Shown: one piece after another, positions 13,001 through 31,619 of the stretch
Numbering within the stretch: the stretch's first letter is position 1
Layout: the number at the start of each line of letters is the position of its first letter
The notes under the pieces: generated by a model
The model's database searches: none
Seen by the model: the letters and a program-made list of their open reading frames with translations, nothing else
What the model was told of the DNA's origin: nothing
Assembly: GCA_022013205.1 (NCBI GenBank)
Contig: JAKLQT010000244.1
Span: forward strand, 1 to 36,843
Direction of reading: 5' to 3'
DNA length: 36,843 nt
From: Candidatus Omnitrophota bacterium
Lineage (GTDB): Bacteria; Omnitrophota; Gorgyraeia; B26-G9
Program-made: the position numbers and the translations under genes

Positions 13001-14039
13001 AATCGGTATTACCCTGGGCGACCCTGCCGGCATCGGTATGGAAATAACTCTTAAAGCGCTCCAGGACAAAAAAATCCGCGAATCCGCCACTTTTCTGCTT
13101 ATCGGGGATTACGGAGCTCTCACTCATCTGCAGCGTGACCTGAGAATTAAAGCCGTCAACTACCACATTATCTCCGATATCGGGCGGCTGCGTTTAAGCG
13201 AAGAACTCATAAATTTTGTCAACCTGGGAAATATCACCTTCAACATTCCGTACGGGAAAATCGACGGCCGCTGCGGCAAGGCCGCCTATGAATACATAAA
13301 TATGGCCTGCCTGCTCCTGCGTTCTCACGACAACCTTGACGCCTTAGTCACCGCCCCGATCAATAAGGAAGCCCTGCATTTAGCCGGGCACACATTCCAT
13401 GGCCATACCCAGATACTCGCGCAGCGGTTCAAGTCCCGCTACGTACGCATGATGTTCTGCGCGGAAAAACTGCGCGTGGTGCTCGTAACCATCCATGTGC
13501 CGCTGAAGAATGTTCCCGCTCTCGTAACGAAAAAAGAAGTGCAGGACACCATCTTTGCCGTGCAGCGCGTGATGAACACCAATTTCAAGATAAAAAGGCC
13601 GCGCATTGCCGTCTGCGGCCTAAACCCGCACGCCTCGGAAGACGGCTTATTCGGCACGGAAGAAGCGGAACATATTATTCCCGCGATAAAAAAAGCCAAA
13701 GCGCAGCACATAAGGGTTGAAGGCCCCTTCCCCAGCGACACTTTGTTCTGGAAGGCAAAAGAAGGGCAATACGACGCAGTTATCGCCATGTACCATGACC
13801 AGGCCTGCATTCCGTTTAAGACGCTCTATTTCGACAAAGGCGTCAACGTTACGCTCGGGCTTCCGTTCATCCGTACCTCTCCCGACCATGGCACGGCCTT
13901 TGACATCGCCGGGAAAAACATGGCCGACCCGCACGCGATGAAAGAAGCCATCCGTGTAGCGGTGGAAATGACTTCGAACATGCCGCGCAAACGAAAGAAA
14001 AAGAAAATTTATGTCCCGCACATCGAACATTCCGGTTGA
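12981..14039 (+). CDS. pdxA: 4-hydroxythreonine-4-phosphate dehydrogenase, 352 aa
   Basis: IGITLGDPAGIGMEI; TAPINKEALHLAGHTFHGHTQILA; AVCGLNPHASEDGLFGTEE; GPFPSDTLF; AMYHDQACIPFKTLYFDKGVNVTLGLPFIRTSPDHGTAFDIAG. Confidence 0.96.
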   Translation: MAKKKAKIGITLGDPAGIGMEITLKALQDKKIRESATFLLIGDYGALTHLQRDLRIKAVNYHIISDIGRLRLSEELINFVNLGNITFNIPYGKIDGRCGKAAYEYINMACLLLRSHDNLDALVTAPINKEALHLAGHTFHGHTQILAQRFKSRYVRMMFCAEKLRVVLVTIHVPLKNVPALVTKKEVQDTIFAVQRVMNTNFKIKRPRIAVCGLNPHASEDGLFGTEEAEHIIPAIKKAKAQHIRVEGPFPSDTLFWKAKEGQYDAVIAMYHDQACIPFKTLYFDKGVNVTLGLPFIRTSPDHGTAFDIAGKNMADPHAMKEAIRVAVEMTSNMPRKRKKKKIYVPHIEHSG

Positions 14040-14856
14040 TTACAAACCGCGGCCGAAAAAAAGGCTCGGGCAGCATTTCCTTATCGATAAAGCGGCGCTG
14101 GGAAACATCCTGGACGCCGCTCGGCTTTCTTCCGAGGACTACGTCCTGGAAATCGGCAGCGGGAGCGGCAACCTCAGCGTACTGCTGGCGAAACAAGCCG
14201 GAAGATTCTACGCCCTGGAAAAGGATACGGCCTTTAACGCGGTTCTTAAAAGCCGGCTCAAACCTTTCCCCTGCAGCAAAATCATCTTCACCGACATACT
14301 CGCGTTTGATATAAAAGAAATATTCGAAGGCAGAAAATATAAAGTGATCGGCAACATCCCCTATTACATCACCTCGCCGATTATCACGCGGCTCATCGAA
14401 CAGCGTGAATACATCGACACGATACTCATAACCATCCAGAAAGAAGTCGCGCAGCGCATCGTTGCCTGCCCGGGGACGAAAAACTACGGACGGCTTTCCA
14501 TACTTGCGCAATTCTACACCAGTCCGGAACTCATAACCATCTTTCCCAAAAAATTATTTTCTCCGGCTCCGGAAGTTGACTCCGCGCTGATACGCCTAAA
14601 AATACTCTCTTCCCCATCCATATCCGTTGCCTCGGAAAAGACGTTTTTTAGGGTGGTAAAGGCGATCTTCGCGCAGCGCAGAAAAACACTGTTAAACGGG
14701 TTGCTCGCCGCCGGCTTCGCGATTAATAAAGAAACAATGCTGGAGATACTGAAGAAAACGGATATTACGCCTTCATGCCGCGGGGAACAGCTAAAACTCT
14801 GCGAAATAGGCAGGCTCAGCGACGCGATCGAGGGATATTCACCGCAAAAGATTTAA
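14011..14856 (+). CDS. rsmA: 16S rRNA (adenine1518-N6/adenine1519-N6)-dimethyltransferase, 281 aa
   Basis: PKKRLGQHFLIDKAALGNIL; VLEIGSGSGNLSVLLA; VIGNIPYYITSPIITRLIE; FAQRRKTLLNGL. Confidence 0.95.
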   Translation: MSRTSNIPVDYKPRPKKRLGQHFLIDKAALGNILDAARLSSEDYVLEIGSGSGNLSVLLAKQAGRFYALEKDTAFNAVLKSRLKPFPCSKIIFTDILAFDIKEIFEGRKYKVIGNIPYYITSPIITRLIEQREYIDTILITIQKEVAQRIVACPGTKNYGRLSILAQFYTSPELITIFPKKLFSPAPEVDSALIRLKILSSPSISVASEKTFFRVVKAIFAQRRKTLLNGLLAAGFAINKETMLEILKKTDITPSCRGEQLKLCEIGRLSDAIEGYSPQKI

Positions 14857-15191
14857 ATCGCCGAACGCAAAACACGGTCAACTTCAATGGCCTTACGGTC
14901 AAAATCAATGCTGTTCAATTCTATCGGCTCAAGCTCATAAACGGAAGCATCATTGCCCTCTTCTATGATCTGCGCCTTAAATGTACTTACCTCACCTGCG
15001 CTAATGATGTTGTGCATCTCCGTACTTACCAATGCCTTCGGCAACTGCACGGATAAGGGGCATATTGATTCAACAGGCAGCATACAAAAAGCAAAACGGC
15101 TGGACATAACCACAATACTCAGAACTGTTATCGCGGAAATTTTCATATTAATTCTTTTCATCTTTCTCACTCTCCTGCTTTCGTTACTCAC
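14853..15191 (-). CDS. Small exported protein, leader/C-terminal-tag family (ends LRSAI), 112 aa; true start may be an internal Met
   Basis: MKRINMKISAITVLSIVVMSSRFAFC signal-like; PLSVQLPKAL resembling the LxPxVQI motif; C-terminus VDRVLRSAI; promoter copy at 15236-15264. Stop codon overlaps the rsmA stop on the opposite strand. Confidence 0.6.
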   Translation of the reverse strand: MSNESRRVRKMKRINMKISAITVLSIVVMSSRFAFCMLPVESICPLSVQLPKALVSTEMHNIISAGEVSTFKAQIIEEGNDASVYELEPIELNSIDFDRKAIEVDRVLRSAI

Positions 15192-15235
15192 TTCTCTGTT
15201 TAAAAAAATTAACCGTCTTTTCTAAAAGGTAATTA

Positions 15236-15264
15236 ATTATACCATATATTTTTCTTCTTTGCAA
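15236..15264 (-). promoter_or_regulatory. Promoter copy 1 of shared class: TTGCAA-17 bp-TATAAT
   Basis: Minus strand TTGCAAAGAAGAAAAATATATGGTATAAT, upstream of the 112-aa tagged gene. Confidence 0.8.
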
Positions 15265-15293
15265 CTCAGTCACGCCAAATATTTTATTACTGC

Positions 15294-15316
15294 AACATAT
15301 TGCAAAACAATGTGTT
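15294..15316. promoter_or_regulatory. Inverted repeat upstream of promoter copy 1 (aacatattg-5-caatgtgtt)
   Basis: Arms match with one mismatch; related sequence at 20348-20370 and 27115-27137 at nearly the same offset from the -35. Confidence 0.6.
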
Positions 15317-15404
15317 ATATAAATTTATCCGCAGAAAGATTATTCTTCTCTGCAGAAAAAACAAAAACTTGCGGCGTTTTATCCGCTATGAGCTATGAGC
15401 TATG

Positions 15405-15907
15405 TTATATCGCCTGTTCGATAAGCTCTAGGCGCTTCTTGTTAAACACTGTATTTTCTCTTTTGCCCCCCCATATCCATCATCTCCACACTTGTAGCCT
15501 TAATCCAATAGTCTTTTATAACCAAGAGGAATCCATATTCTTTCAGCTCTTTTCTCATAGCCAAAGAAAATCATATCCCAGTATTTACTCAAAGTTACTA
15601 AATTTTTGCTATTCCCATTTATCTTTTTTAAAAGGTTTGCCATCCACCTTTCAAAAACATTAATATCCTTCTTAATTCTCCCATGGCTATTTACAACAAC
15701 CTCGCCTGCCCCGCCCCAGGTAATATCTAATACCAAAAACGCCTGAATCAGCGCCAAAGCAATTATTTTAAATATTCTTTTGTTTTTTGGTTTTTCGTAT
15801 TTCCCAATTTCCATAAATTTCCATAAATTTCTTATTTCTTCGTTCTCGTCCCAGTGAGCGCAGCGAATGGTTTTAATTTTATTCATCCGGCAAATTTTTA
15901 TTTTCAA
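15405..15907 (-). pseudogene. Decayed leader/tag family member: leader KNKRIFKIIALALIQAFLVLDITWGG retained, C-terminal RLELIEQAI retained in another frame
   Basis: 135-aa ORF carries the leader; translating 15405-15481 on the minus strand gives WIWGGKRENTVFNKKRLELIEQAI* in a different frame, next to a C7 homopolymer at about 15466-15472. Confidence 0.75.
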
Positions 15908-18813
15908 ATCGATTGGGCAATAAAAAATTCGTTATTTTTAATTTTAAATGCGGTTACGGCACAAGGCATAACATCCGAAACGGGAATATCTCTCAAAAGA
16001 TGCCCGGCCATTTCTTCAACTTCCAGATTGGTAATATTAAGAGCCTCTCTAACGCGTTCTAAAGAAATACCACTTGTCATACACGCTCGGATATAAGTAT
16101 CTATTTCCTTTCCCAGATTAAATCGCTCAGCAATATATTCCCAGGCAGAAGCTTTCCCGTCAATTATCTGTCTTACCCGCAATAGCTCTTTAGCAAAAAA
16201 AATCCTCATTTGCCTACTGCCGCAATCAGAAATCACTTTAATTAACCTGCTAATATCCAAATTGCTTTTGGCTAAAAATTTTTCTATTTTTGCTATTTCA
16301 CGTTTTAATTCATCATCAGATGATTTACCGGCAACTGTTTTTAATATCTCTCGCATTAATAACAAACTCTCCAAAGAAAACATAAAAAGGCCAATGTTTT
16401 TCTCCGCTTCGGCGACATCTGATGTCAGTTCTGCCTGAAACGCTATTTTATTTTTTATTCTCTCCAGATAAACATTCACATCCTTTATCTGTGTATCTAT
16501 AAAATTACCATAAAGTTGTATAATCTTATCTCTGTCTTCACGGTTTTTGTTGAACCCAAAATTATCAGAATCATTATAAACAAGCATGTAAACCAACGCT
16601 TCATTAATAACCGCCTCTATTGGAAAACGTTCCTCATTTATTAATGAGGAAAATCTTCCTCCTATCTTCTGAGTCGACACCCTGCTCAGATTCTGCCTAT
16701 ACCATACCGGAACCACAATATTTGATTCAGGGAAACCATCAATAAAACTCATTTTAAATATTAAGCCTTCTTCTTTAAAATCAGGCCGTGAGATTAAATT
16801 ACGAAAACTCGGAGTATGGACATAATATTCCAAGAAATTATTTCCCCATGCCCCAAAGAATCTGTAACTCTTGGCCAAAGAATAAATTCTAAAAAAAGAA
16901 TCCCAAAAATCGGCCCATGTGGTATCAGAATTGATTAGTATAAAAAAATTTGTATTTTTAATTTTGTATTTCTCGCATAATTCGATAACCCGTTCTACAT
17001 CATTCATGGAATAACCAAGTTTTCCCCCTTTACCCAAACGACGGATTTCCCTGTCAGTAAAACCATCTACTCCAATTGCGATTCTTCCCAATCCGTTAAT
17101 CTTTGCCAATGACTCGAACAGTGATTCATCAATAATCTTTTTCCCATCTCTTTTTTTGAAAAAGCTATTCACCGAAACCGCTAATGAACCGCAGGTAAGC
17201 CCCAATCCCTGGGTGATTTTCAAAATCTCCATCCCACGGGATTTCTGGATAAACATATCGTCATCAACAAACCAGACAGTCAGGGCTTGTTTAAATTCCG
17301 CAGACAATTCATTTCCTTCATAAAGAGCAGACACCCTTTCTTTATATGCCGTTAAAAATTCCTTCACGCTGTCCACGGAAAATGTCCTGTATACCGGCCC
17401 CATAATCTGAGCGCAAAAACTACACCGGTAAGGGCATCCCCGGCTGGTAATCAATGTTAACCCATACTGAACATCCGATTTATTCAGAAAACCAAAATCA
17501 ATTTTAAACTCTTTCATCGCCTCATCAAGATTATAAAAATAATTCAGATAATCAAGATTTGCAGCAAGGCTAGTTTTACCGAACCGCAAATAGGCGCCAA
17601 ATAACGGTGTTAATTTAAAAGCTGTCTGCCGGGATAAATCCTGAGAGGCTTTCTGTCCTGCCAAAGAAACAAGCGCCTTTTTAAACACACCTTCTGCTTC
17701 TCCGGCAATAATCACATTTGCCTCTGGGATATGCTGAGCAAGCAAATCCGGAGCCAGCGTAACCGAAGGCCCTCCCAGAGCTATAACTACGTCTTTATTT
17801 ACCGCGCGGATAGCACGCACAAAATCCTGAACTGCCTTAATTTCATTGAGGGAAGGCGTAATCATTGATATAGCCATCACATCAATCTTCTCCAGATTAA
17901 TACATTCAATAATCCGGCTATTTTCCGCGTCAGTCGTGCCTTTTACGAATGAAATATTCATCCCTTCTTTTCTTAAACTCATTGCTAAAAACATATTCCC
18001 CAAAGAAGGCCCGGCAAGTGTCTCCGTCCGCGCATCGCGGGCATCAAAAAAATCGACAAAAAGCACGGAAGGTGATTTTTTGTTTTTCTTCAAAGGCATT
18101 TCAATATTTTTTCTAACCATTGTTTCTGTTTTTATACCGGCCATACCGTTAAATGCTTCCGCAATCAATGCCTGGATACGCTCTTTCTCCGCAAAGATAA
18201 GATTAATTCCAATATTTATCTGTAAAAAACAAGAATCTCTGCTTGATTTTATGGTAATTCCCTGCACATCATCACGAATCGTAATCTCGCCAAATACATC
18301 TTGCACTCTAAAACGCCTAAAAAATTCTTCCGCAATAAGCGACTGTATTCTCATCTTAGCCGCTTCCTTTTGCTGAGATGATTTTTCCGCTTCATAATCC
18401 TTACTCTCTTCCCTGACAAACCACGTCCCGGGAAAACCAATTGTTTGTTCCACCGGCAGATTATCTTTAGCACGAATAATCCTGCCTCCCGCGTCGAACT
18501 GAACCCTTGTTCTCTGGGGATAAATATTATATTTCTTTTGTTTAAGCTTTGATAATCGCAACTGCGGCAAATTGGTTATTTCATGGCCAATTTGTAACCC
18601 GCTACCCGGATTATAGCTGATGCCAAACTGGCCATAATCACTGTATGCTTTCTGAAATAATTCCTTATTTATTTCAAGCTGAGGGCTTAAACTGGTTACA
18701 ATCTTTCCGCACCTATCATTATCAGTGAAAGATAAATCACTAAATCCAAAATCCAGCATCATAAAAGCATGGATAAGCGCTAATGAAATTATTTTAAATA
18801 ACCTTTTATTCAT
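15904..18813 (-). CDS. B12-binding-domain radical SAM protein with family leader and C-terminal tag IAQSI, 969 aa
   Basis: Leader MNKRLFKIISLALIHAFMMLDF; TSLSPQLEI motif; B12-binding-like VVIALGGPSVTLAPDLLAQHIPEANVIIAGEAE; radical SAM CxxxCxxC ITSRGCPYRCSFCAQIMGPVYRTFS. Confidence 0.85.
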   Translation of the reverse strand: MNKRLFKIISLALIHAFMMLDFGFSDLSFTDNDRCGKIVTSLSPQLEINKELFQKAYSDYGQFGISYNPGSGLQIGHEITNLPQLRLSKLKQKKYNIYPQRTRVQFDAGGRIIRAKDNLPVEQTIGFPGTWFVREESKDYEAEKSSQQKEAAKMRIQSLIAEEFFRRFRVQDVFGEITIRDDVQGITIKSSRDSCFLQINIGINLIFAEKERIQALIAEAFNGMAGIKTETMVRKNIEMPLKKNKKSPSVLFVDFFDARDARTETLAGPSLGNMFLAMSLRKEGMNISFVKGTTDAENSRIIECINLEKIDVMAISMITPSLNEIKAVQDFVRAIRAVNKDVVIALGGPSVTLAPDLLAQHIPEANVIIAGEAEGVFKKALVSLAGQKASQDLSRQTAFKLTPLFGAYLRFGKTSLAANLDYLNYFYNLDEAMKEFKIDFGFLNKSDVQYGLTLITSRGCPYRCSFCAQIMGPVYRTFSVDSVKEFLTAYKERVSALYEGNELSAEFKQALTVWFVDDDMFIQKSRGMEILKITQGLGLTCGSLAVSVNSFFKKRDGKKIIDESLFESLAKINGLGRIAIGVDGFTDREIRRLGKGGKLGYSMNDVERVIELCEKYKIKNTNFFILINSDTTWADFWDSFFRIYSLAKSYRFFGAWGNNFLEYYVHTPSFRNLISRPDFKEEGLIFKMSFIDGFPESNIVVPVWYRQNLSRVSTQKIGGRFSSLINEERFPIEAVINEALVYMLVYNDSDNFGFNKNREDRDKIIQLYGNFIDTQIKDVNVYLERIKNKIAFQAELTSDVAEAEKNIGLFMFSLESLLLMREILKTVAGKSSDDELKREIAKIEKFLAKSNLDISRLIKVISDCGSRQMRIFFAKELLRVRQIIDGKASAWEYIAERFNLGKEIDTYIRACMTSGISLERVREALNITNLEVEEMAGHLLRDIPVSDVMPCAVTAFKIKNNEFFIAQSI

Positions 18814-19022
18814 ACTTCAGCCCTCTGCCATCATCCTTCAAGAAATCCCTCCCAGTTTCCATAAATTTCAATAAATTTCCAACAATTCCTTATTTCTCAG
18901 TTTTAATTTAATTTCAATCAATTTCCACGAGTTTCTAATAATTTCTAATTTCTCTCTCTGTCCCAGCGAACGCAGAGAGCGATCGTCCATCGGACTTCGG
19001 CTTGCAGCCTGCAGCAGCGTGT

Positions 19023-19069
19023 CAGCCATCAGCTATCAGCTATCAGCCATGAGCTATGAGCTATGAGCC
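19023..19069. repeat. Heptamer repeat tract (agccatc/agctatc/agccatg/agctatg)
   Basis: cagccatcagctatcagctatcagccatgagctatgagctatgagcc, period 7. Confidence 0.85.
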
Positions 19070-19080
19070 AACGAAGCCAT

Positions 19081-20200
19081 TTATATCGCCTGCCCTATCA
19101 ATTCCAAGGCTAAAATTTCAGGACACAGCGCCGGCAATTCGGGAGCTGCCAGCAACTGCATTTTTTTCTCCGCCACGCCAAGCTGTTCCTCCAGCTTAGG
19201 CAAGGCGTTTTTCGGATCGCCAGTACGGATTTCCGTCTTCCACTCGCCGGCTAAATAAGGTTGCCGGCTCTTCTTCCGTAATTTTTACGGCAAAAACGCG
19301 CTTCTCCGGCACAGTCACCAATGCCGGACGCGGAAATAATTCCGAGAGATGCTGCCACCATTCTTTGAGCTTGTCTTTCAGCTTGTTCCTAAGCGAAATG
19401 TAATTTTTCAGCGGCCAAATTACGTAAGAATACGGCCAAATTAGCGGCATGATCGCCAGGGATAAATGCGGCTCATAAAAGTAAAGATGCAGATCGCCTT
19501 TCCAGTCTACGGCAAAGGCTTTGGGCCGGCTGAATTCCCGTTTCAGCGTCTTGTTTTCGTTTTGCGGATCATCCGCGAAAAGCTCAAGGTCACCTTGATA
19601 AAACACCAGCAGCCCGCGGCCATCCTCATAATTTTCATTAATATGTTTAGCTAAGAGCTCAACATAAAAAGCAACAACAAACACACCAGCGAGAGAAGAA
19701 ACTAAATACGTCAGAGCATTGAAGTTAAACCCTTTGATAGTAGAGACAAAATAAACGACAATTTTAGCCACCAGAGACGCCCAACATCCGGCCCGAATTT
19801 CCATCAGATGCTCTCGAATATCTTCCGGCAAATCCTCAAAAGCAATAATAATTTTGCCTTTCGGCTGGTTATTATCCCCGCGCTTGCCGCTAGTTGCCTT
19901 CTGCGCATTCTGCGGGTTCTTCCTGCCGGAAACACCAGGAGATTCCGCCGGCAGAGCCATCCTCATCGCCCCGCTTACACCGCCGGATGCCGCAGCGAAA
20001 AATTCCAAGCCGCCGGACGAAAACTGCGAGCCACGGTCTGCCAGCCGCGAATAAGCCGTTTGAAACTGCTCCGCTCCGATTTGCACCTGCGGATTCAAAG
20101 TCTTTGGCTCAGCGACCCGGCCTGTGCCGCACCACGCGCAATCCATCACCAAAAATGCCTGGATTAATACAAACGCAATCAATCTGAATAATTTATTCAT
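19081..20200 (-). pseudogene. Leader/tag family membrane protein interrupted by one frameshift (or assembly error); full product would end EILALELIGQAI
   Basis: 334-aa ORF (19196-20200) starts MNKLFRLIAFVLIQAFLVMDCAWCG and has TLNPQVQI; shifting frame around 19240-19265 gives PYLAGEWKTEIRTGDPKNALPKLEEQLGVAEKKMQLLAAPELPALCPEILALELIGQAI* ending at 19081. Confidence 0.75.
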
Positions 20201-20291
20201 TTTATTTTATTTTTTCCATTTTCAAAATACTTAATTCATTAAAATAAATAAAGTTATGATTATATCCCGCCATTTTTTAAAATGGCATAAA

Positions 20292-20320
20292 AGTATACCA
20301 CATCTTTTCTCCCTTTGCAA
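20292..20320 (-). promoter_or_regulatory. Promoter copy 2 of shared class: TTGCAA-17 bp-TATACT
   Basis: Minus strand TTGCAAAGGGAGAAAAGATGTGGTATACT upstream of the gene starting at 20200. Confidence 0.8.
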
Positions 20321-20347
20321 AAAAAAGAATAAACATTTCATTACTGT

Positions 20348-20370
20348 AACACCTTATAATACAATGCGTT
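20348..20370. promoter_or_regulatory. Inverted-repeat-like element upstream of promoter copy 2
   Basis: gtaacaccttataatacaatgcgttac; same offset from the -35 as in copies 1 and 3. Confidence 0.5.
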
Positions 20371-20584
20371 ACACAAGCGTATCCGAGAGGTTAACCATTC
20401 TTTTGGCAGAAAAAACAAAAACCTGCGGCGAATAAATTGGTATTTACGATTAGTTTTGCGGCTCTCGCAATTTATTATGATTGTTGTTGCCCAAAAACCT
20501 TTACAGCGGAAAATCCTCTAATGATTCTTATCTACTTGACTTATCTTAAAAAATATAGTATTCTTTTTTATAGGAGAATTACAT

Positions 20585-20812
20585 ATGTTAAAACGATTTA
20601 AAGTAATAATCGAGCCGGAATCTGGAGGCGGGTATTCCGTGCATGTACCTGCACTCCCGGGGTGTGCTTCACAAGGCGAAACTATAGAAGAAACGATTTC
20701 TAATATCAAAGAAGCTATTGAATTATATATCTGGTCCCTTAAGGAAGATAAACTGCCCATTCCTGATTCTGATATAGAGGTAGAGTTAAGAGAAGTAGAA
20801 GTTTCAGTATGA
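20585..20812 (+). CDS. hicB: HicB-family antitoxin, 75 aa
   Basis: FKVIIEPESGGGYSVHVPALPGCASQGETIEETISNIKEAIELYI. Confidence 0.92.
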   Translation: MLKRFKVIIEPESGGGYSVHVPALPGCASQGETIEETISNIKEAIELYIWSLKEDKLPIPDSDIEVELREVEVSV

Positions 20813-21039
20813 GTAAACTGCCGCATGTCCGCGGAAAAGAAGTTATTCGTGTTTTGCAAAAGCACGGATTTTTTATTAAACGCCAAAGCGGTTCTCATGT
20901 AATCATGCGCCACCAAACCGATCTTAACCGCAGATGCATCATTCCCTTGCATAGCTCTCAAACCATAAAACCCGGCACATTATATTCTATCCTCAAAGGC
21001 GCCGGGATTTCTATAGAAGAATTTGTTAAACTTCTCTAA
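20809..21039 (+). CDS. hicA: HicA-family mRNA interferase toxin, 76 aa
   Basis: VRGKEVIRVLQKHGFFIKRQSGSHVIMRH...IPLHSSQTIKPGTLYSILKGAGISIEEFVKLL; ATGA overlap with hicB. Confidence 0.93.
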   Translation: MSKLPHVRGKEVIRVLQKHGFFIKRQSGSHVIMRHQTDLNRRCIIPLHSSQTIKPGTLYSILKGAGISIEEFVKLL

Positions 21040-21164
21040 TAGAGATATTTTTTCCATTTAAGACCATCTCCTGCCACTGCCACCTCTTTCCTTACTTAGG
21101 GTCTGCTGAAAAACTCATCAGACCCTGATTACAAAGATTAAAAACAAGATTACATGATTAAATA

Positions 21165-21209
21165 TAGACGGAAAAATCAAATGCAATTATTTTAAATATC
21201 CTTTTATTC
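21165..21209 (-). pseudogene. Remnant 5' end of a leader-family gene (MNKRIFKIIA then divergence)
   Basis: Minus strand ATGAATAAAAGGATATTTAAAATAATTGC; the upstream flank (about 21210-21350) nearly duplicates the upstream flank of the 969-aa gene (18814-18935). Confidence 0.55.
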
Positions 21210-21350
21210 ATACTTCAGCCCTTCTGCCATCATCCTTCAAGAAATCTCTCCCTGTTTCTATAAAATTTCAATGAATTTCTATCAATTTCCAACAATTCCT
21301 TATTTCTCAGTTTTAATTTAATTTCAATCAATTTCCACTAATTTCTTATT
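21210..21350. repeat. Copy of the 18814-18935 upstream region (direct repeat) rich in GAAATTTATTG-like 11-nt units
   Basis: Shared atacttcagccctctgccatcatccttcaagaaat and aatttccaacaattccttatttctcagttttaatttaatttcaatcaatttccac in both. Confidence 0.85.
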
Positions 21351-21409
21351 TCTTGTTTTTCAGTTTTCTTCTAAGCCAAGAACCATCAGCCATGAGCTAA
21401 TGAGCTAAG

Positions 21410-24400
21410 TTATATCGCCTGCTCGATAAGTTCCAAATTAATGGTTAAATTTTCTTCAAGTTTTACGCTTACGCTCTCTAATAACATTTTCACTTGAATC
21501 TCTGATGGATCATCCACTTTTACCATATGTACATCCGGCAGTGATTCGGCGGAGATTACTGCCTGCGATGGGTCGTTTTTACCAAATATAGCTGTACGCA
21601 AATCAAAATTACTCTCAATATCCGCCCTAAGAATTTCTTCTTCTGCAGCATCCTCGGTTTTATAAACCTTCTCCAGAGCATACTGTTCTTCAATTTCCTG
21701 TTCAGTTTTAGTATTCATCGGCTTTAGCAATAAATCAAAAAGCCCTGTTGAAACCACCGGCTGGGTTTGCTGATACAATCCCGCAGTAATAGTACCCGGC
21801 ACAGAATGTCCGTAACAATCAGAGTAGTCGAATTCAGAACGGCCGCGGAAGAGCTGGAACACATACTGTTCAATTGCCCCTTCTTTAACTTTATCATTTA
21901 CCGCCGGCCTGTATTGAGAACCCGCAACAGGCAAGCCGGTTTTTTGCGACAATATATCCAGCGCCGCATAGAGTTTGTCGATTTCTCTTACACCAAACTG
22001 CGTACTCTCTTCCACAAAGATATCCGCTTGTTTATTGCCATCCTTGTCCTCCAATATTCTCAGCCTGACTATCCTTCTGGTAATAACGTTTCTATTCTCA
22101 TCCAATAATACCACTGCCTTGTTTGTCCCGTTAACCACATAACCCGTAAGCCCCCTGCTTAAATTAGTGCCATAGGTACAGCTCTGGCATGCCGTTGAGC
22201 CGCGATAGTTTCCTATGTTAAATAGAATATAGAAGTCATCGGTAAACTCAATAGCCGCCTTATCTCCTTTTTCCGTTGTTATTACATACTGAAGAAGCTT
22301 TTCCCAATTTTTAATTTTTTCAATCCGCGATTTTAAACCAGCGAACCCATCAAGATTATGCAATTTTTCATAAAGAGTCTCTCCTTGAGCTTGTTCAAAT
22401 GCTTTTTTAAGCGCTGTTTGTTCTTTTACAGAAAGCTTATTAATCTCTATATCTATAATTTCATCTATAGTCTTTTTATAATCTTCGCTTTCATATTTCC
22501 ATTGCTTAAAACGACCGTCAATTTCCGCCTCAAGGGCAGCTAAAATATTTTCATAGATTTCCTTATCGGTAATGGACCTTAGATAAATATCTATCAGATT
22601 ATAAATGTTTCTTCCTTGATGATCTCTCCATTTAAATCTTGGATTATTTGCCGCGTAATTTCTTAATTTTTCAAGGAAGACAGATTCATTCCCTATAGAT
22701 ATAAATTTTTTAAATCGAGCTAACAAAACTTCGGCATCAATCATTGCTAATCGCTCTGATAGATCTTTTATTTTTGCGTCATTAATGTCTTTTCCGGATA
22801 AGAGATCATTCAAAATAGCTTCACTATTGCTCTCAAAGATTTCGTTGATAAGTTCTGGAAACAGTTTATCTTTAGATTTTTTATAAGTATCAATGACTTT
22901 TAAATACTGTTCCAGGTAATACATCAGTTCATCATAAAATCTCTCTGAATTCTCCGGAGAAGGAAAACCTTCTCTTTGCTCAATAGCTTCCAGAAGTTTT
23001 GCCAAAAGCTCACCGCTGCGATCATAATTCAATGTCAATAACAAAACCATCTGTTCATATAATTTGTTTTTAACCGTAGCTAACTGGTCATGTATATTTT
23101 TATTGGTGTTTAACGATCTAATCAATTGCCTGAAGGTATTCAGGGTTTTTGTATCTGAGTTTATCCGTAACAGTATTCCATAAAATATATGCGGGATTTG
23201 TGTTGTTATTTTCGACAATGTAATCTGTTGAAATAAGTTATTGATGTCTTCTTTAAAACATTTCAATTCTTCACCGGACAGTTTCGTAGCCGCATATTTT
23301 CTTTCCTGGTATAAATTTCGCAGCTGTTTAAATACCTCTTTCTGCTGTTTCTTATCTTGCAATCGAACGGCATTTTCTAAGTAATCATAAAAAACAGTAT
23401 TCTCAGCCAATAAATAACGGTTCTCCTCAAGAAAATATCTTATAAAAAGTGCCTTTCCACCAAGTGTTGTTAAATTGCCTCCATTTTTGAGTTCATCAAT
23501 TATCTTTAGAATTATTGTATTATCTGTCGTGATACCAAATAAAACTTTTAAACAAATCCTTAATTGACTCCCGGCTGGCTGCCCCAAAAACTGAGTTTGC
23601 AACTCGGAAAATAATTCATCTTTTTTTTCAATTGATAAAGCGTCAATGGCCTGAAATCCATCAGCGAGCATATCTTCTTTGGCTTCTTGCGAAATACTTT
23701 CCAGCTTAAATCTTAAGATATCCAATAAACTAAGATTGCTGCCTTCCGCAATAAGATTTAACCCAGGAAATTTCTGCGCCTTATCAATTTCTTCCAATAC
23801 GCTGATTAAATCTTCCACCGTCTTACCCTGCCTGCTCAACCCTTGAGAAACCGGCTCAAGCTGTTCGATCTTGGCTTGTAAAACAAATAAGTTAGACAAA
23901 ATCCAGCCTGCCTGTCTTATGATAAAGTCTGCGTTAGGCATGCCCTGCAACTGCTGTTTTACAGCATTCGTTATTTCTTCTAATGACTGCTTTGGGTCTT
24001 CTATAATTGTTCTGATGATTTTCTTAATATCTTCTATCGAAAGATATTTTAGCAGTTCGTTTATCGAAGAAATCTCGATTTTATATCGTTCCGGGTTATT
24101 TCTAAAAAACCGATCAAAAATCTCCTTGGCTTGCGAAATATTTTCCAAAGAGAATAAATATTCGAATAAGCTGTTTTTTTGATCCTCGCCGATCCTCATT
24201 TCAGCCGGATGAAGCGTCACTTCCCGGTTCAGGTTATAGGCAATCTCATTTAGTTGCGTTTTAAAAGCAGGCTCAGACAATCTTCCAAGAATGTTTTCAA
24301 TATCCTTTCTCTGGTCTTTTATAAACCTCGCAAGCTTTATATTGATTTTTAATGCCTTGGCAATTATTGCTTCCGGTGCAGCGTTAAGAATTTGTATTTT

Positions 24401-26968
24401 AAAATCTTTGGGTATTAAATTGCTCCACAAAACCTGCTCTATAAATCCATATACTTTTCCATTTGCTTCTTTAAAATGCCTATTAAAAACACCATTTAAA
24501 ACAGGCTCTATGAGAAAATCCGACTTATCCAGGGCAATAAACACGTTTTTGATAATTTTAACATGAGAAATAAGTTCAGGATTAAATATTTCAAGGATAC
24601 TTTTAAAATCGGAATTATCCCCGTAAACTATTTTATATAGTAATACAGCTAGTACCGCATCTTTTAATTTTTTATTAGTAGAGTTAACCAAAATATCTTT
24701 TATTGTAGGATAGGCATCATTTAAGTCTAAAGTATGCTTCCATTTCTCGAAGTAATCCATGCCAAAAACCTGTTTATTTTCATCCTTATCATCCTTGAGC
24801 ATCTCCAAAAACAACTTTTGCACCCCCTGGTTTATCCTTTGACGCGCCGGATTTAGCAACCGCTCATTTTCAGGGTTTTTAATAAAATCTAACTCGAAAC
24901 CAAGTTCTTGGCATGTTTTCTCAATAGCCTCCTTCAAGTCTAATATGTCGTTTTCTTTGCTGTATATTTTTGTTCCTTTTGCCTTATTTTCATCCTCTCT
25001 ATAAATTCTCAAATATTCTCTAAATAGATTTCTATAATAATAAGAACTGCCCGTAAGATAATTCTCAAAAAGATAATTTTTGTCTTCGTGACTTATACCC
25101 AAATAGTCATTTTTTACAAAAGCCTCTTCAAATTTTCGAAATAAAGGATTATCAATGTGTGTTTGGAGAAAACTTGCGGGATTATCCCGGATAGTCTCCA
25201 CAACTTCCATTAAACCATCAACATTATTTTCTCTTAATTGATCCATTTGATCCGGGGTTAAGGAAGATAAAAATTTACCCAAAGAACGCAATAGAGGATT
25301 TTCTCCTGAAATTCCTTTCTCCCGCCAGGCGTTCATAATAATCAGCGGCGTTAATTCTACCCTTAACTCAGGATTTTCCTCCACTAATCTGAGTAGTAAT
25401 TTACCTAAATTAACACTTTCTTTCGTGCCTGAAGAAGATGCAATCAGCAGCGCGGAAATTTTGGTTTTTAACCACTGCCAATTTTCCGGCGTGAGTTTTA
25501 ACTCCTCAAGAGAACTGCATATCTCTATAAATGAATTCGATAAAACATATCCCACGTTCTGGTTGAAATACCTGCTTTGAGAGGCCTTGGCTAATAAGGT
25601 AGTTAAGGTATTGATTTCAGTTTTATATTGTTCGACAATCACAGACGTCCCAAAAGCCGTTAAAAGATGGTAAAATTTACCTTCCTCGGATTGGGCGATT
25701 TTCCCCAGCTCTCTGATTACAAAATTATAAATTTCAGGATCAAAATCATGGAATAGGGCTTCCTTAAGGATATCTTCCAGAGATAAATCGCTCCTGTCAT
25801 TTAGCGGGATAATTTTCCAGATAATCACCGCTAAAGATACCCGGTTATCCTGACTAAGTTCACTAATTAACGCTAAAAACTTTTTTTGCTTGGCTTTGCC
25901 GGATAACTGTTTGGAAAGAGCGGTTAATAATTTGTCCGCTAAAAAATTATATTCTCCGGCGCTATCATCTTTTTTATACACCTCATATACTATATTCCCG
26001 TTTCTCTTGATCTGAACACCGTCAATGCCAAATTTGTGCGTTAGTCCTATGTCATAATCTTTGGTTTTAATTAAAATACCGCCTTTAAACTTTACGCCTT
26101 TTAACGCGGCCATGGCCGAATCTATCGCCTTATTTGCCTGATAAAATCCGATGCGCTTTCTGATGTCCTTCTTATATCTATTCCATAACCAGGCTCCGCC
26201 GCCTAACAATAATGCCGAGCCAAGCGTACCTCCTACTACTTTTCCCAGAAAAGACAAATCTTTTTGCCAACCTTCCCTTTTCCTTTGCTTTTCCCTGTCA
26301 ATTGCCTCCGCGATTATTTTTTTATCGTCTTTAAATTTCTCGTCTACGAAGACCACCTTATGCTCCCTGTCCCCAATGAGAAACTGAAGCCTGGCGTCTG
26401 CTTTCATTCCCCATTCAGACAAGTTTTTTATCGCAACCAGATAATATTTTTTCGCGTCATCCTCATAAACCGGATATTTCGCGAGCAAGGCAATGCTTTC
26501 CTTTCGCCATTTTTCGTATTCATCCTGATGTTTCTTTTCTTCGTTATTCTGAAATATCGCCCATAAGCCTCCTATTTTTTTTCTATGCTTATCTTCTGCC
26601 TCTACCGCTTGTTTTAAATCCTGAGGAAGATTGCCGCGCAGGAAGCTAATATATTTTCTATGCTCTGCATCTTCATCTGCTCCTTCTAGATTTTGGGTTG
26701 TTGCCGCCGCTGATTTTTTTTCTGATTTCCCCAAACCGGCCACCCCAAAGGCCCCAAGCAAAAAATCACGGCGGCTGATTTTGGTACCCTTTTCCTGAGA
26801 TTCAGTAAAAATATTTTGCAGCGGGGCCTCTACCATATTTACCTTAGGCGCTAATAAACTTGCTCGTGTCGTATTGTCAGTAAATAAATTAACCCCGCAC
26901 CACGCGCAATCCATAACCAAAAACGCCTGGATTAATACAAACGCAATCAATCTGAATAATTTTTTCAT
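21410..26968 (-). CDS. Giant leader/tag family protein, alpha-helical-repeat-like, 1852 aa, ends LELIEQAI; internal Tat-like SRRDFLLGAFGVAGLG
   Basis: MKKLFRLIAFVLIQAFLVMDCAWCG leader; SLLAPKVNM motif; Tat-like motif about aa 65-80; TM about aa 245-265; long helical body; C-terminal Cys-containing domain NYRGSTACQSCTYGTNLSRGLTGYVVNG. Confidence 0.8.
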   Translation of the reverse strand: MKKLFRLIAFVLIQAFLVMDCAWCGVNLFTDNTTRASLLAPKVNMVEAPLQNIFTESQEKGTKISRRDFLLGAFGVAGLGKSEKKSAAATTQNLEGADEDAEHRKYISFLRGNLPQDLKQAVEAEDKHRKKIGGLWAIFQNNEEKKHQDEYEKWRKESIALLAKYPVYEDDAKKYYLVAIKNLSEWGMKADARLQFLIGDREHKVVFVDEKFKDDKKIIAEAIDREKQRKREGWQKDLSFLGKVVGGTLGSALLLGGGAWLWNRYKKDIRKRIGFYQANKAIDSAMAALKGVKFKGGILIKTKDYDIGLTHKFGIDGVQIKRNGNIVYEVYKKDDSAGEYNFLADKLLTALSKQLSGKAKQKKFLALISELSQDNRVSLAVIIWKIIPLNDRSDLSLEDILKEALFHDFDPEIYNFVIRELGKIAQSEEGKFYHLLTAFGTSVIVEQYKTEINTLTTLLAKASQSRYFNQNVGYVLSNSFIEICSSLEELKLTPENWQWLKTKISALLIASSSGTKESVNLGKLLLRLVEENPELRVELTPLIIMNAWREKGISGENPLLRSLGKFLSSLTPDQMDQLRENNVDGLMEVVETIRDNPASFLQTHIDNPLFRKFEEAFVKNDYLGISHEDKNYLFENYLTGSSYYYRNLFREYLRIYREDENKAKGTKIYSKENDILDLKEAIEKTCQELGFELDFIKNPENERLLNPARQRINQGVQKLFLEMLKDDKDENKQVFGMDYFEKWKHTLDLNDAYPTIKDILVNSTNKKLKDAVLAVLLYKIVYGDNSDFKSILEIFNPELISHVKIIKNVFIALDKSDFLIEPVLNGVFNRHFKEANGKVYGFIEQVLWSNLIPKDFKIQILNAAPEAIIAKALKINIKLARFIKDQRKDIENILGRLSEPAFKTQLNEIAYNLNREVTLHPAEMRIGEDQKNSLFEYLFSLENISQAKEIFDRFFRNNPERYKIEISSINELLKYLSIEDIKKIIRTIIEDPKQSLEEITNAVKQQLQGMPNADFIIRQAGWILSNLFVLQAKIEQLEPVSQGLSRQGKTVEDLISVLEEIDKAQKFPGLNLIAEGSNLSLLDILRFKLESISQEAKEDMLADGFQAIDALSIEKKDELFSELQTQFLGQPAGSQLRICLKVLFGITTDNTIILKIIDELKNGGNLTTLGGKALFIRYFLEENRYLLAENTVFYDYLENAVRLQDKKQQKEVFKQLRNLYQERKYAATKLSGEELKCFKEDINNLFQQITLSKITTQIPHIFYGILLRINSDTKTLNTFRQLIRSLNTNKNIHDQLATVKNKLYEQMVLLLTLNYDRSGELLAKLLEAIEQREGFPSPENSERFYDELMYYLEQYLKVIDTYKKSKDKLFPELINEIFESNSEAILNDLLSGKDINDAKIKDLSERLAMIDAEVLLARFKKFISIGNESVFLEKLRNYAANNPRFKWRDHQGRNIYNLIDIYLRSITDKEIYENILAALEAEIDGRFKQWKYESEDYKKTIDEIIDIEINKLSVKEQTALKKAFEQAQGETLYEKLHNLDGFAGLKSRIEKIKNWEKLLQYVITTEKGDKAAIEFTDDFYILFNIGNYRGSTACQSCTYGTNLSRGLTGYVVNGTNKAVVLLDENRNVITRRIVRLRILEDKDGNKQADIFVEESTQFGVREIDKLYAALDILSQKTGLPVAGSQYRPAVNDKVKEGAIEQYVFQLFRGRSEFDYSDCYGHSVPGTITAGLYQQTQPVVSTGLFDLLLKPMNTKTEQEIEEQYALEKVYKTEDAAEEEILRADIESNFDLRTAIFGKNDPSQAVISAESLPDVHMVKVDDPSEIQVKMLLESVSVKLEENLTINLELIEQAI

Positions 26969-27058
26969 TTTATTTTATTTTTCCCATTTTCAAAATACTT
27001 AATTCATTAAAACAAATAAAGTTATGATTATATTCTGTCATTTTAAAAAAGGCATTTA

Positions 27059-27087
27059 AGTATACCATATCTTTTCTGCCTTTACAA
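27059..27087 (-). promoter_or_regulatory. Promoter copy 3 of shared class: TTGTAA-17 bp-TATACT
   Basis: Minus strand TTGTAAAGGCAGAAAAGATATGGTATACT upstream of the 1852-aa gene. Confidence 0.8.
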
Positions 27088-27114
27088 GGGAGGCGGTAAA
27101 TATTTTATTGATGT

Positions 27115-27137
27115 AACATCTTAAAATACAATGTGTT
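27115..27137. promoter_or_regulatory. Inverted-repeat-like element upstream of promoter copy 3
   Basis: gtaacatcttaaaatacaatgtgttat. Confidence 0.5.
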
Positions 27138-27267
27138 ATGTAAATATACCCGAAAAGAAAACCATTCTTTTGGCAGGAAAAACAAAAACTTGCGGTGAAT
27201 TGTTTGCAGCCTAAATGATAAACAATGATATTTGAGAACATCCTTCTAATGCAAATTTCGGGATGAT

Positions 27268-30200
27268 TTATACGGCTGATTCTATGGTAGAGTGCGGCGA
27301 TAACGGTTGTATTGTGTGCCGCAGAGTGAGAGTAGGTACTTTTACATTTTGAACCTTCCCCTTGGAGTTAGGAACTACCCTTTTATCCTTTCCGCCTGGA
27401 GCCTGATTGATTTTAGAGATAGTCTCATGGGGAACATAAGGAACTATAATTTCTCCCAAATCCAGGATGTTTAACCGCGGCTTCTCCGGATTTCGCTTAT
27501 CAACATAATAAAAATCCACATTGTAACGCATTTTTGCCGTATCCATTACTCCGTTTTTTACCGGATGTCCTAACCGTGTAATAACCGTATCACTAATTTC
27601 AAACCTATTGACAACCCTGATATCTCCGCCTGTATACAGGGAACCGCTGGGGCCGGAATCTTTTGTCATCGCTTCCGCACTTTGCTTATATAATGTCATC
27701 AATGCTTTTTCTTCCAGCAAAGATAACCTCTCTTCCTTTACTGCTTGCTGAACACGGTTTAAAAAATCCGGCCGACAAAAATATGACCCGTAAGATTCCA
27801 CAAAAAAACTTTCCACCAGTTGCTTGCTTAAGTTACGCGCTTTAAGCTCCTTTTGCAAAAATACTTCGGGTAAAGCATGAAAATGAAAAGAGAAAACTCC
27901 GTTTATAAAACGCCGATCATCCAAGTTTTCGTAACTGTCGTCTTTTTCCGAATAAGACTGCACACTGTTCGGCCATAAAGTTCCGTCTTGTCTTAAATCC
28001 CAGATTCCTCCGTATTCGGTGGTGTGATCAAACATATCCTTAGCGCCGATTTCGCTCAATCTTGCGGCTAGTTGCGGATTATGCAAGGCCTTCTCTACGA
28101 GTACGAGGCGTAAAAGAGCCAGATTGGAAAATCTTTCAAATGCCGGACGTTCGGTGTAATCAGAAGACGGCTTTATTTTCTTTGGGCCATCTTCTGTCCA
28201 AATGGTTATCGGCAAATCATCCCTTTTCTGTCGTGGGAAAGCCTTACGGGTTAATATATCCTTAATTTCACGGATCATTGCCTGACGGTCAAACAGCATC
28301 TTTTCAAGCTCTGGCGAAATCTCATTTAAAAGCAGCACATCGCTGATAGTCACCCGTTCTCCCAGAGTTTCCAATCTGTTGATAATTCCTTCCATTCTTT
28401 CCCGGTTAAATTTTTCGGCTATTCTTATCACTGTTAAAAAAGAGGAGCTGTGCAATTGCCTGATATAAAAACGCGTCTTAATAAATGAAACTACATCCTT
28501 AAATCGCAAAGAAAAAAGCAGGCTCATTTTTTCGCGGTCCTTTGCAACCGAATCGTAGAGTTCGGATAATTTCATAAGATCACGGATATCTTTTGCCCCC
28601 CCGTAAAATTGTTTGATGATTTTCTCGCTGAACCTTAAGAAATTATTGTCCTTCAAGTTATGAACAAACCGTTTGTCCGAATACGCGGCCATGGCCGCTA
28701 TTTTCAGCGGCTTATAGTCACGATAATTCGTCTTTAAATCAAAACCAAGCCGCGCCAGTTTATCCAGCACAAAAACCGTCTCAGGAGTGTAGTTATCTGA
28801 AATGTCCAAGGCTTTCAACAATATTTTTTCCTTCGTCCCTTTCCCCGGATACATGCGGGAAAAGAAGGCATTGAGCTCATCATATATCGGCCGCATTGAC
28901 GGTTTTTCCAGATCTTCCAACAGATAATCTATTGTAAAAATGGAAATATTATTTGAAAATTCCACAATTTCAATTTTACTGAATCCATATTTTTTTTGTA
29001 AAATATTCGCGGCTTTGAGAAATTTCTCAACATCTATCAACTTATAACATAAAAACCACTGTAACCATGCCAGGGGAACTTTTCCCTCAACAAGTTCTCC
29101 TTTTTTCTGGAAATACTCAACAAAATATTCTTTCCATAGTTTACCCTTCTTTTGCGCCTCGAGGTCATATGCTTCTATCAGCAAACGCGCATTATTTAAG
29201 AAACCAACTTTGTCATAAAAATCATTCAGGGCCGTAAGCACAACAGGTTTGCCGTCCTCAATCCGGCTTATTAAGCGATATTGTTTCTTCAGCTTTACAA
29301 ATTTTTCGGCATTCTTTTTATCCAAATAAAAATCGCGTTCTTCCGGGTTGAGCAATATCTCAATAAACCGGTCAAATCCCAGGCTGCTTAACTGCCAATT
29401 TTTTATCAAAACATCATAGAGAGTAGCGGTAACAGGCGATTGCAACTGCTCATAAATTTGTTTGAAATTCAAATCATATTCCGCCGCTTTACCAAATATG
29501 TTCTCTTGCGGCAATACTACTGCCTTGAAATTTTTTTTCTCTAAAAGATTTATGATTTTGATCCTGGTTTTAACATCTTCCAATTTGAATTCCGGCATGC
29601 CTCTTGTCCTTAAACGCTGTATACTGTCATTCAACCGCCAAAAATCCTGCTGCGAACCATAAGCCTTAATAATATGGGTCATCACCCCCAGAGACATCCG
29701 GTTTTTTAATTCAGGATAGCGCGCAGTTAATTTATCAACGAATCTCCGGAAGTTACGGTTATCGGCAGAAGGAAAGACATAGCTTCCGGCATAGTCTGAG
29801 GTGAAATCAAGCTTACCGAGATTAGTATTAAAAAGGCTTAACAGGGAATCATAACGCATTAAAAAATCCTTAAACTCAGCGGGGCTCATCTCATCCGTCG
29901 CCCAAACCTCCAGATACTTATCTACAAGCTCAAGCTTTCTTAGATTAAAAGCGCCGGCTATCTTATATAACAATTTCCAGAATAAACTATCTTTCTGCCT
30001 ATAAAAACTACTTCTCAGTGACAAAACATCACTGTGACCGAGAAACTCGCTTACTGTCTCATATGCAACTCTCTGCGGATATTTATCCTTAAAATAGGAC
30101 CAGATCGTTAATGACAAGGGATGACTTAAAGATTCCATTTTATCCTTATCCACTTCAACCAGACTTTTAAAATCAGATACATCTTCGATTTTAACTCCAT

Positions 30201-31323
30201 ATGTTGAGCGGAGAAATACATATTGCCGCGCCCATTTTTTAACGGTTTTTTCGTAATCAATTTTCTCTCGCAATGGGCTTTCAGCAAGAGCAGTCAAAAT
30301 CCTTATATTCAGAAGGTAACTGATATCAAATTCTACGCCCAACGGTTTAAAATACTGTTTAAGAACAGAAAAAGACTGCGTTATCCGGCCGGACACAAAC
30401 TGCTCCAAATGGGGAGGCGATAAATATATATCCAGCGCTTGGGACAGATAATTGTTTGGAGTTATGTTATACATTTTTTCCAAAAAATCACAAAATACCC
30501 TAAACTCCGGACTTTTTAAAGTATGTAAATATATCTTTTTTTCTTTTTCCTCTTTCGTGATAATGGTAAAGATTTCTAAAAAAGGGACATCAGCGGTTTG
30601 CAAATCCAGATTTTCCGCCGCCCATAACAATGTTTCTTTAAACTCGCGCGAGGAGATAATTACCTTAATTTCAGCAAGAGTTTTTTTCAGGAGACTCCTA
30701 TCAAATTCAATCAATTCGAATGAAAATTGTTCGTTGAATTCCCGTAAGATTGAAAGCATTTGCGCATTTTCCAGGGTAAAAAATTTTCGTTTTGTAATAC
30801 CGGGATTCCTGCCCTTGTGCCAGTCGAAAACTAAATCCCATCTGTACCATCCCTGCGCCCTCAATATTAATAAGAGATCTTTCGCGGGAATGGATTCCAG
30901 TGTTACATCCCCGGCTATTAACTGCTCTCTGGTTGCCTGAAGTTCGGAAATATTTCTTGAGATGCCGGGAGGAAACAGCTGATGTCCGCTGAACCCAGGT
31001 ATTAGTCGGTCACCGGGTTGCATAAGCATTAAAAGAGCAGACATTGTTAATATGGCTTTTTTTATTTTACTCAGTCTTTTTGCTTCCAGAACAAAATCGG
31101 CATTGCCCTTTTCCGGAAGAACAATGTTTTCTGCTTGAAAAATCTGTTTTACATGTTCTTGCGAAATTTGGACGGCAGGAGCAAGCGTATCATAAGCTTT
31201 TTCTCCGCTAATGACCATGTCATTGCCGGCCATTCCCGTGGAAAAACAAAAAATTGGCGGAAAAATAAGTAAACTAATTAATTTTATTAATCTCGGGCTT
31301 AACTTTATTTTGTCTATCTTCAT
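27268..31323 (-). CDS. Giant leader/tag family protein, helical, 1351 aa, ends TIESAV
   Basis: N-terminal hydrophobic LIKLISLLIFPPIFCFSTGMAG; TLAPAVQISQEHVKQIF motif; second TM AILTMSALLMLMQPG; long helical body; C-terminal FSFHFHALPEVF...DSGPSGSLYTGGDI. Confidence 0.75.
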   Translation of the reverse strand: MKIDKIKLSPRLIKLISLLIFPPIFCFSTGMAGNDMVISGEKAYDTLAPAVQISQEHVKQIFQAENIVLPEKGNADFVLEAKRLSKIKKAILTMSALLMLMQPGDRLIPGFSGHQLFPPGISRNISELQATREQLIAGDVTLESIPAKDLLLILRAQGWYRWDLVFDWHKGRNPGITKRKFFTLENAQMLSILREFNEQFSFELIEFDRSLLKKTLAEIKVIISSREFKETLLWAAENLDLQTADVPFLEIFTIITKEEKEKKIYLHTLKSPEFRVFCDFLEKMYNITPNNYLSQALDIYLSPPHLEQFVSGRITQSFSVLKQYFKPLGVEFDISYLLNIRILTALAESPLREKIDYEKTVKKWARQYVFLRSTYGVKIEDVSDFKSLVEVDKDKMESLSHPLSLTIWSYFKDKYPQRVAYETVSEFLGHSDVLSLRSSFYRQKDSLFWKLLYKIAGAFNLRKLELVDKYLEVWATDEMSPAEFKDFLMRYDSLLSLFNTNLGKLDFTSDYAGSYVFPSADNRNFRRFVDKLTARYPELKNRMSLGVMTHIIKAYGSQQDFWRLNDSIQRLRTRGMPEFKLEDVKTRIKIINLLEKKNFKAVVLPQENIFGKAAEYDLNFKQIYEQLQSPVTATLYDVLIKNWQLSSLGFDRFIEILLNPEERDFYLDKKNAEKFVKLKKQYRLISRIEDGKPVVLTALNDFYDKVGFLNNARLLIEAYDLEAQKKGKLWKEYFVEYFQKKGELVEGKVPLAWLQWFLCYKLIDVEKFLKAANILQKKYGFSKIEIVEFSNNISIFTIDYLLEDLEKPSMRPIYDELNAFFSRMYPGKGTKEKILLKALDISDNYTPETVFVLDKLARLGFDLKTNYRDYKPLKIAAMAAYSDKRFVHNLKDNNFLRFSEKIIKQFYGGAKDIRDLMKLSELYDSVAKDREKMSLLFSLRFKDVVSFIKTRFYIRQLHSSSFLTVIRIAEKFNRERMEGIINRLETLGERVTISDVLLLNEISPELEKMLFDRQAMIREIKDILTRKAFPRQKRDDLPITIWTEDGPKKIKPSSDYTERPAFERFSNLALLRLVLVEKALHNPQLAARLSEIGAKDMFDHTTEYGGIWDLRQDGTLWPNSVQSYSEKDDSYENLDDRRFINGVFSFHFHALPEVFLQKELKARNLSKQLVESFFVESYGSYFCRPDFLNRVQQAVKEERLSLLEEKALMTLYKQSAEAMTKDSGPSGSLYTGGDIRVVNRFEISDTVITRLGHPVKNGVMDTAKMRYNVDFYYVDKRNPEKPRLNILDLGEIIVPYVPHETISKINQAPGGKDKRVVPNSKGKVQNVKVPTLTLRHTIQPLSPHSTIESAV

Positions 31324-31397
31324 ATGTCTGTTGAATTCGTTATATTCGTTTATCCCGTTTTTTTAGTTTTTCCGTTCTTAGGTCTTTTTGTTCTTTT

Positions 31398-31460
31398 AAG
31401 CTTGCGGCTTGTAGCTTGTGTAATGTAGCCTGTAGCATGAGTTCTATCAGCTATCAGTTC
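31398..31460. repeat. Heptamer-type repeat tract (agcttgc/ggcttgt/agcttgt/agcctgt/agcatga/agctatc)
   Basis: Read directly between the 1351-aa gene and its promoter. Confidence 0.7.
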
Positions 31461-31506
31461 TTTTAAATAGTTATGCTCTATAATCAAGGTTAAAAATAAT
31501 CGTTAA

Positions 31507-31535
31507 AGTATACACTATTTTTGAAAATTTCGCAA
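31507..31535 (-). promoter_or_regulatory. Promoter copy 4 of shared class: TTGCGA-17 bp-TATACT
   Basis: Minus strand TTGCGAAATTTTCAAAAATAGTGTATACT upstream of the 1351-aa gene; half-site aacatattg at 31568-31576. Confidence 0.65.
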
Positions 31536-31619
31536 AATAATCAAGCGGTAAATATAATTTGTGCTGCAACATATTGATATAATTAAAGTTAAAGAAAAGG
31601 CTAAGTTAACGCGGCAAAT

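Follow-up and report, generated by a model that had tools for sequence, protein, structure and literature searches.

Bacterial systems that read a signal at each end of the protein chain include PEP-CTERM/exosortase, GlyGly-CTERM, MYXO-CTERM and the C-terminal domain (CTD) of the type IX secretion system (T9SS), and in each of them one C-terminal signal is carried by many unrelated proteins of a genome; the MYXO-CTERM and GlyGly-CTERM sorting signals are treated in two reports (PMC11980579, PMC3237569). Here we analyse a 36,843-nucleotide stretch of DNA from a Candidatus Omnitrophota bacterium (contig JAKLQT010000244.1; the whole stretch is referred to as the window), in which a protein of the B12-binding radical S-adenosylmethionine (SAM) superfamily, encoded at 15904-18813 on the minus strand, carries an N-terminal leader and a short C-terminal tag. 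In contrast to the CTERM and T9SS signals, the Omnitrophota tag is about six residues long and has neither a transmembrane (TM) helix with a basic tail nor a domain of 70-100 residues. We consider the chances evenly balanced that a dual-signal export pathway of its Omnitrophota family carries this protein among its cargo.

Giant open reading frames (ORFs), encoding very large proteins linked to host-dependence, have been described for Omnitrophota (Seymour et al. 2023, PMC10066038), and a term search of that paper found neither signal peptides nor C-terminal signals mentioned. Within the open-access literature, what is new here is the signal system, while the enzyme domain belongs to a known superfamily.

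The radical SAM protein and its orthologs

The gene at 15904-18813 encodes 969 residues from an ATG that lies 7 nt downstream of a Shine-Dalgarno-like GAGGG (18821-18825, minus strand). The product contains a B12-binding domain (residues 268-378, positions 17680-18012, minus strand; Pfam PF02310, E 1.8e-12) and a Radical SAM domain (residues 455-640, positions 16894-17451, minus strand; Pfam PF04055, E 2.7e-9), both above the curated cut-offs. The predicted [4Fe-4S]-binding CxxxCxxC motif, GCPYRCSFC (17413-17439, minus strand), is intact, and its G, C, P, C, F and C do not vary across an alignment of 35 homologs. The protein therefore belongs to the B12-binding radical SAM superfamily; cobalamin binding, [4Fe-4S] binding and catalysis are predicted.

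The AlphaFold model is of moderate quality (pLDDT 65.6, pTM 0.67, with low confidence at both ends), and a Foldseek search with it, which also bears out the B12-binding and Radical SAM domains, matched TokK, OxsB, MgmA, CysS and TsrM (E 1e-11 to 3e-9). These class B radical SAM enzymes likewise place a B12-binding domain ahead of the CxxxCxxC radical SAM domain, but the window protein is only about 13-15% identical to them and adds some 245 N-terminal and 300 C-terminal residues, a leader and a tag. Scores against the NCBIfam equivalogs all fall far short of the family cut-offs (the best being 47 bits where 360 are required), and a sequence search of solved structures gave no match.

The Sec-type leader (MNKRLFKIISLALIHAFMMLDFGFS; residues 1-25, positions 18739-18813, minus strand) matches the leader profile at E 9.9e-26, a score that arises partly by construction because this leader is a row of the seed alignment. 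It is followed by an LSPQLEI box (residues 42-48, positions 18670-18690, minus strand), and the protein ends in NNEFFIAQSI, where FFIAQSI with the stop codon (15904-15927, minus strand) is a variant of the consensus [LF][IV]EQ[AS]I. The leader holds no twin-arginine motif, its start MNKRLFK having KR without RR, and neither a C-terminal TM helix with a basic tail nor a CTD domain is present in the protein.

Orthologs occur in three of the 12 genomes of the order, the window's own included (E 1e-25). The G007 ortholog (L040/L090) is complete at 952 residues, with leader, LSPQLSI box and the variant end KEIEQYI, while the G002 ortholog (L039/L086) has lost its N-terminus to a contig edge and ends in EKLIAQAI. 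Distant homologs (about 20-30% identity) start at the B12 domain, so that a chance fusion at the N-terminus or a wrongly called start might have been suspected, and the preliminary description had named leaderless orthologs as the sign of a fusion. Leader, box and variant tag are all present in the complete ortholog, and the tag in the truncated one, so this explanation can be set aside; the GAGGG upstream of the ATG and the dozens of proteins with the same leader also speak against it, and the complete ortholog together with the GAGGG rules it out.

More distant relatives vary. G009 encodes a 1141-residue protein with a B12-domain match, CxxxCxxC, a leader-like start, MLSPRLAM and the end GVETAI. 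Two radical SAM proteins of other types also have leader and tag, one of 607 residues in the window's own assembly (L081, ending ELTEQSI) and one of 1198 residues in G002 (L246, ending ELELIGQAI). In G003, G005 and G011, the long B12-radical SAM proteins have neither leader nor tag.

In all three ortholog-bearing genomes the radical SAM gene adjoins leader/tag genes, a linkage that the preliminary description had proposed to check. B12-radical SAM methylases often modify peptides, and this, with the linkage, would fit a maturase acting on other leader/tag proteins, as had been suggested. However, a general tag-modifying role is very improbable, because orthologs are confined to three of 12 genomes and the tag is found throughout the family, with leader proteins in each of the nine family genomes sampled to count leaders. 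The small leader/tag genes next to the three orthologs also have no detectable similarity to each other, which rules out a conserved small partner gene downstream.

Leader, box and tag across the family

A profile built from four window leaders identified about 30 leader proteins in the window's own assembly; a second KsgA there, on contig C71, shares 58% identity with the KsgA encoded in the window. At least two organisms are therefore combined in the assembly, which inflates own-genome counts. With a 36-leader profile, matches occur in 70 of the 285 genomes of the phylum, and the window's family predominates (scoring limited to 23 candidates per genome).

Leader proteins terminate in [AST][IV] in 52 of 63 cases, against 14 of 201 other ORFs (Fisher p=5e-31), a contrast that holds within the fetched family contigs, drawn mostly for their leader hits, and not genome-wide, and in which related proteins are not independent. 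The gene calls come from a greedy longest-ORF script, and both the leader threshold (E<0.01) and the tag pattern were set after seeing the data. A stricter tag pattern on own-genome contigs gives 22 of 31 leader proteins and 8 of 160 others, and the tag logo over the fetched contigs reads [LF][IVL]EQ[AS]I. The 52 tags are encoded by 52 different 18-mers with synonymous variation, which excludes a shared DNA element and points to selection at the protein level. The box is similarly distributed, L[SAGN]P following the leader in 61 of 69 leader proteins and occurring in 12 of 212 others. It is very probable that leader, box and tag form one shared signal system, and the retention of leader and tag in orthologs and throughout the protein set agrees with the preliminary description. 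No NCBIfam sorting-signal model of the PEP-CTERM, sortase or T9SS type matched among the leader/tag proteins scanned.

Eleven leader proteins lack the [AST][IV] end. In six of these a tag follows downstream once a frameshift or in-frame stop has been passed (window 19196, window 15500, L066:13006, L067:2440, L071:12661 and L083:1040), one is the ortholog ending in IEQYI, and one (L074:10414) is shifted and continues into a SecA-M23 protein that is open at the contig end; no tag was found for L068:9589, L086:11432 or L209:11131. Conversely, several of the 14 tagged ORFs without a leader are severed halves of interrupted genes or begin past a contig edge. In-frame stops (TAG, TGA and TAG) part the leader ORF from the tag ORF at L066:13006-15174, L067:685-3264 and L071:12661-13926, and such split genes may be pseudogenes, errors or cases of recoding. 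At L074:10414-18884 the protein that continues beyond the frameshifted leader ORF has SecA_DEAD, SecA P-loop and Peptidase_M23 domains.

Outside the window's family, C-termini were read from chosen examples with no control set: nine complete ones in sister family f2 end like ALQAA, ALASA, ALAAA or YLTAA (L268, L270, L272, L306, L307, L308, L311, L314 and L319), and those of other families are mixed, for example in f16 (L269 ends in ALTAL; L313 has no AL.AA-like end) and f37 (ALISA in L317 and LLKAA in L321, but LQTFA in L316). As part of the two-signal reading, we hold at even strength that the C-terminal code of about six residues is lineage-specific, EQ[AS]I in the window's family and AL.AA in the sister family. 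The f2 leader proteins L268, L270, L272, L306-L308, L311 and L314 also have a TLA.PS box.

Predicted topology and proposed cargo

The leaders have the positive n-region, hydrophobic core and small residues before the cut site expected of Sec/signal peptidase I substrates, as scored by home-made measures; small-x-small at the leader end is frequent by chance and carries little weight. Net charge over 68 leaders averages +3.1 before the hydrophobic core and -0.8 after it, and the n-region is the more positive side in 97% of them, which predicts an N-in/C-out orientation. Leader proteins are also poor in cysteine (0.53%) compared with ORFs lacking a hydrophobic N-terminus (1.21%, p=3e-6) and those with other hydrophobic N-termini (1.11%, p=0.001). 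Charge bias and Cys depletion of the set fit export and support it indirectly, so that the leader, whose role as an export signal the preliminary description had questioned, would probably serve as one, on prediction. Alternatively, the leader could be an uncleaved membrane anchor or no export signal at all, with the enzyme acting in the producer's cytosol. The cofactor needs, the cytosolic cargo types and the intact CxxxCxxC are in keeping with this, but the predicted orientation of the leaders and the Cys depletion throughout the set make it unlikely.

According to Pfam and NCBIfam matches, the two signals are found on many normally cytosolic enzymes. The metabolic domains include adenylate kinase (ADK), phosphoglycerate kinase (PGK), UDPGP, starch synthase and NadD with NAD(P)HX dehydratase; other enzymes include NUDIX, GGDEF, HD/deaminase, low-molecular-weight phosphatase, FAD oxidoreductase, several methyltransferases and radical SAM types; further domains include SecA with M23, HATPase, superfamily 1 helicase and tandem helix-turn-helix (HTH). 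Many leader/tag proteins have no domain match in either database. The tension between cytosolic Fe-S and SAM chemistry and a leader, raised in the preliminary description, is real, and so are the signals on the radical SAM enzyme, but the puzzle is not specific to it. Ordinary leaderless PGK and ADK genes lie elsewhere in the same genomes as the tagged versions; tagged PGKs retain recognisable motifs in part, and with some motifs missing their activity is putative. At L264:1026-9291 (G008), three neighbouring leader/tag proteins have HTH or tandem HTH domains, one of them together with HATPase_c.

Proposed export and possible destination

We give equal weight for and against an undescribed two-signal Omnitrophota export that would ship dozens of cytosol-type, cofactor-dependent enzymes, the radical SAM protein included, out of the producer's cytosol. 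The first signal would combine the Sec-type leader, made up of a positive n-region, a hydrophobic core and a small-x-small end, with the LSPxLxI box behind it, and the second would be the C-terminal tag [LF][IV]EQ[AS]I. The leader would carry the chain over the inner membrane, and the tag would then be read by a putative receptor, perhaps a PDZ-type carboxylate-binding protein, that sorts or ships the cargo; Fe-S, cobalamin and SAM would be acquired at the protein's final site.

Delivery outside the producer's cytosol is favoured because of leader topology, Cys depletion and the hypervariable islands described below. A recipient cell, either partner or prey, is favoured as destination because the cargo needs ATP, NAD, SAM and DNA and sits in fast-changing islands, and we place its likelihood a little short of even. 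GlgA of Chlamydia is delivered by type III secretion. It too is an enzyme of metabolism that would ordinarily stay in the cytosol but is sent out of the bacterium, and the reports on this exported glycogen synthase (PMC3722199, PMC4829429) provide a precedent; starch synthase domains are also present among the tagged proteins, although the Omnitrophota signals sit at both ends and their destination is inferred. The host-dependence traits reported for Omnitrophota (PMC10066038) lend support to delivery. The joint occurrence of leader and tag, the tags that follow a frameshift or stop, the range of cargo domains, the leaderless PGK and ADK genes alongside tagged versions, and the absence of leader and tag from long B12-radical SAM proteins elsewhere in the family also count in favour of dual-signal export.

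Leader, Cys and tag evidence would also fit if the proteins filled an extracytoplasmic compartment of the producer itself, either the periplasm or a membrane-bound lumen, with a metabolism of its own, the tag serving to retain them. The cargo does resemble a partial second metabolism (PGK, ADK, UDPGP, starch synthase and NadD). However, ATP, NAD, SAM and Fe-S assembly would be required in the lumen, the patchy, hypervariable content is unlike that of a housekeeping organelle, and the cargo includes HTH and helicase proteins; we regard this arrangement as doubtful.

Several observations weigh against dual-signal export. The radical SAM protein itself is not Cys-depleted (11 Cys, 1.1%), the cargo is what a cytosol would be expected to hold, and we know of no exported radical SAM enzyme. 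The interrupted leader gene L074:10414-18884 (own-assembly contig C76) joins SecA and M23 domains and suggests no single simple destination. A search for an ATP/ADP translocase in the family gave no match, the control genomes giving none either. Localisation, receptor and outer-membrane channel are hypothetical.

If dual-signal export is correct, Omnitrophota possess a sorting route read at both chain ends, and radical SAM chemistry operates outside the producing cytosol, raising the question of how Fe-S and cobalamin enzymes mature post-translocation. A simple sequence rule would then predict cargo, and it would become testable how members of this widespread phylum, as yet uncultured, live, including whether they deliver enzymes into other cells.

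The ksgA-miaA island

The radical SAM gene lies in a variable leader/tag island (14853-31619) bordered by ksgA (14011-14856) and miaA (31620-32555), and everything in this interval of the window is a leader/tag gene, a fragment or an unassigned stretch. In the window and in L066, L208/L246, L261, L262 and L264, the island has mfd-surA-pdxA-ksgA on one side and miaA-SPOR-miaB on the other. Leader genes, mostly of differing content, occupy the ksgA 3' flank at eight of 10 readable loci (window, G000:C71, G002, G003, G004, G006, G007 and G008), and the island is hypervariable. The G011 flank probably also holds leader genes (tag-like ESSI, start missing), and none are found at the G009 ksgA 3' flank. 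A helicase is common to the flanks of G006 and G007. The window's own assembly has two copies of mfd-surA-pdxA-ksgA and miaA-SPOR-miaB (G000:C71 and G000:C220), about 53-81% identical.

Within the island, all on the minus strand, a short leader-like ORF (14853-15191, 112 residues, ending RVLRSAI) has no leader-profile match, and a broken small leader/tag gene (15405-15907) consists of a leader ORF at 15500-15907 and, in a different frame (15405-15437), the tag KRLELIEQAI. Beyond the radical SAM gene, a leader protein of 334 residues (19081-20200) has the tag ALELIGQAI in another frame at 19081-19110, and is followed by leader/tag proteins of 1852 residues (21410-26968, ending NLELIEQAI), which matches the leader profile, and 1351 residues (27268-31323, ending STIESAV), with a weaker leader match. 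A further profile-matching leader/tag protein, of 469 residues and ending LPFEQAI, is encoded past miaA on the plus strand (33824-35233).
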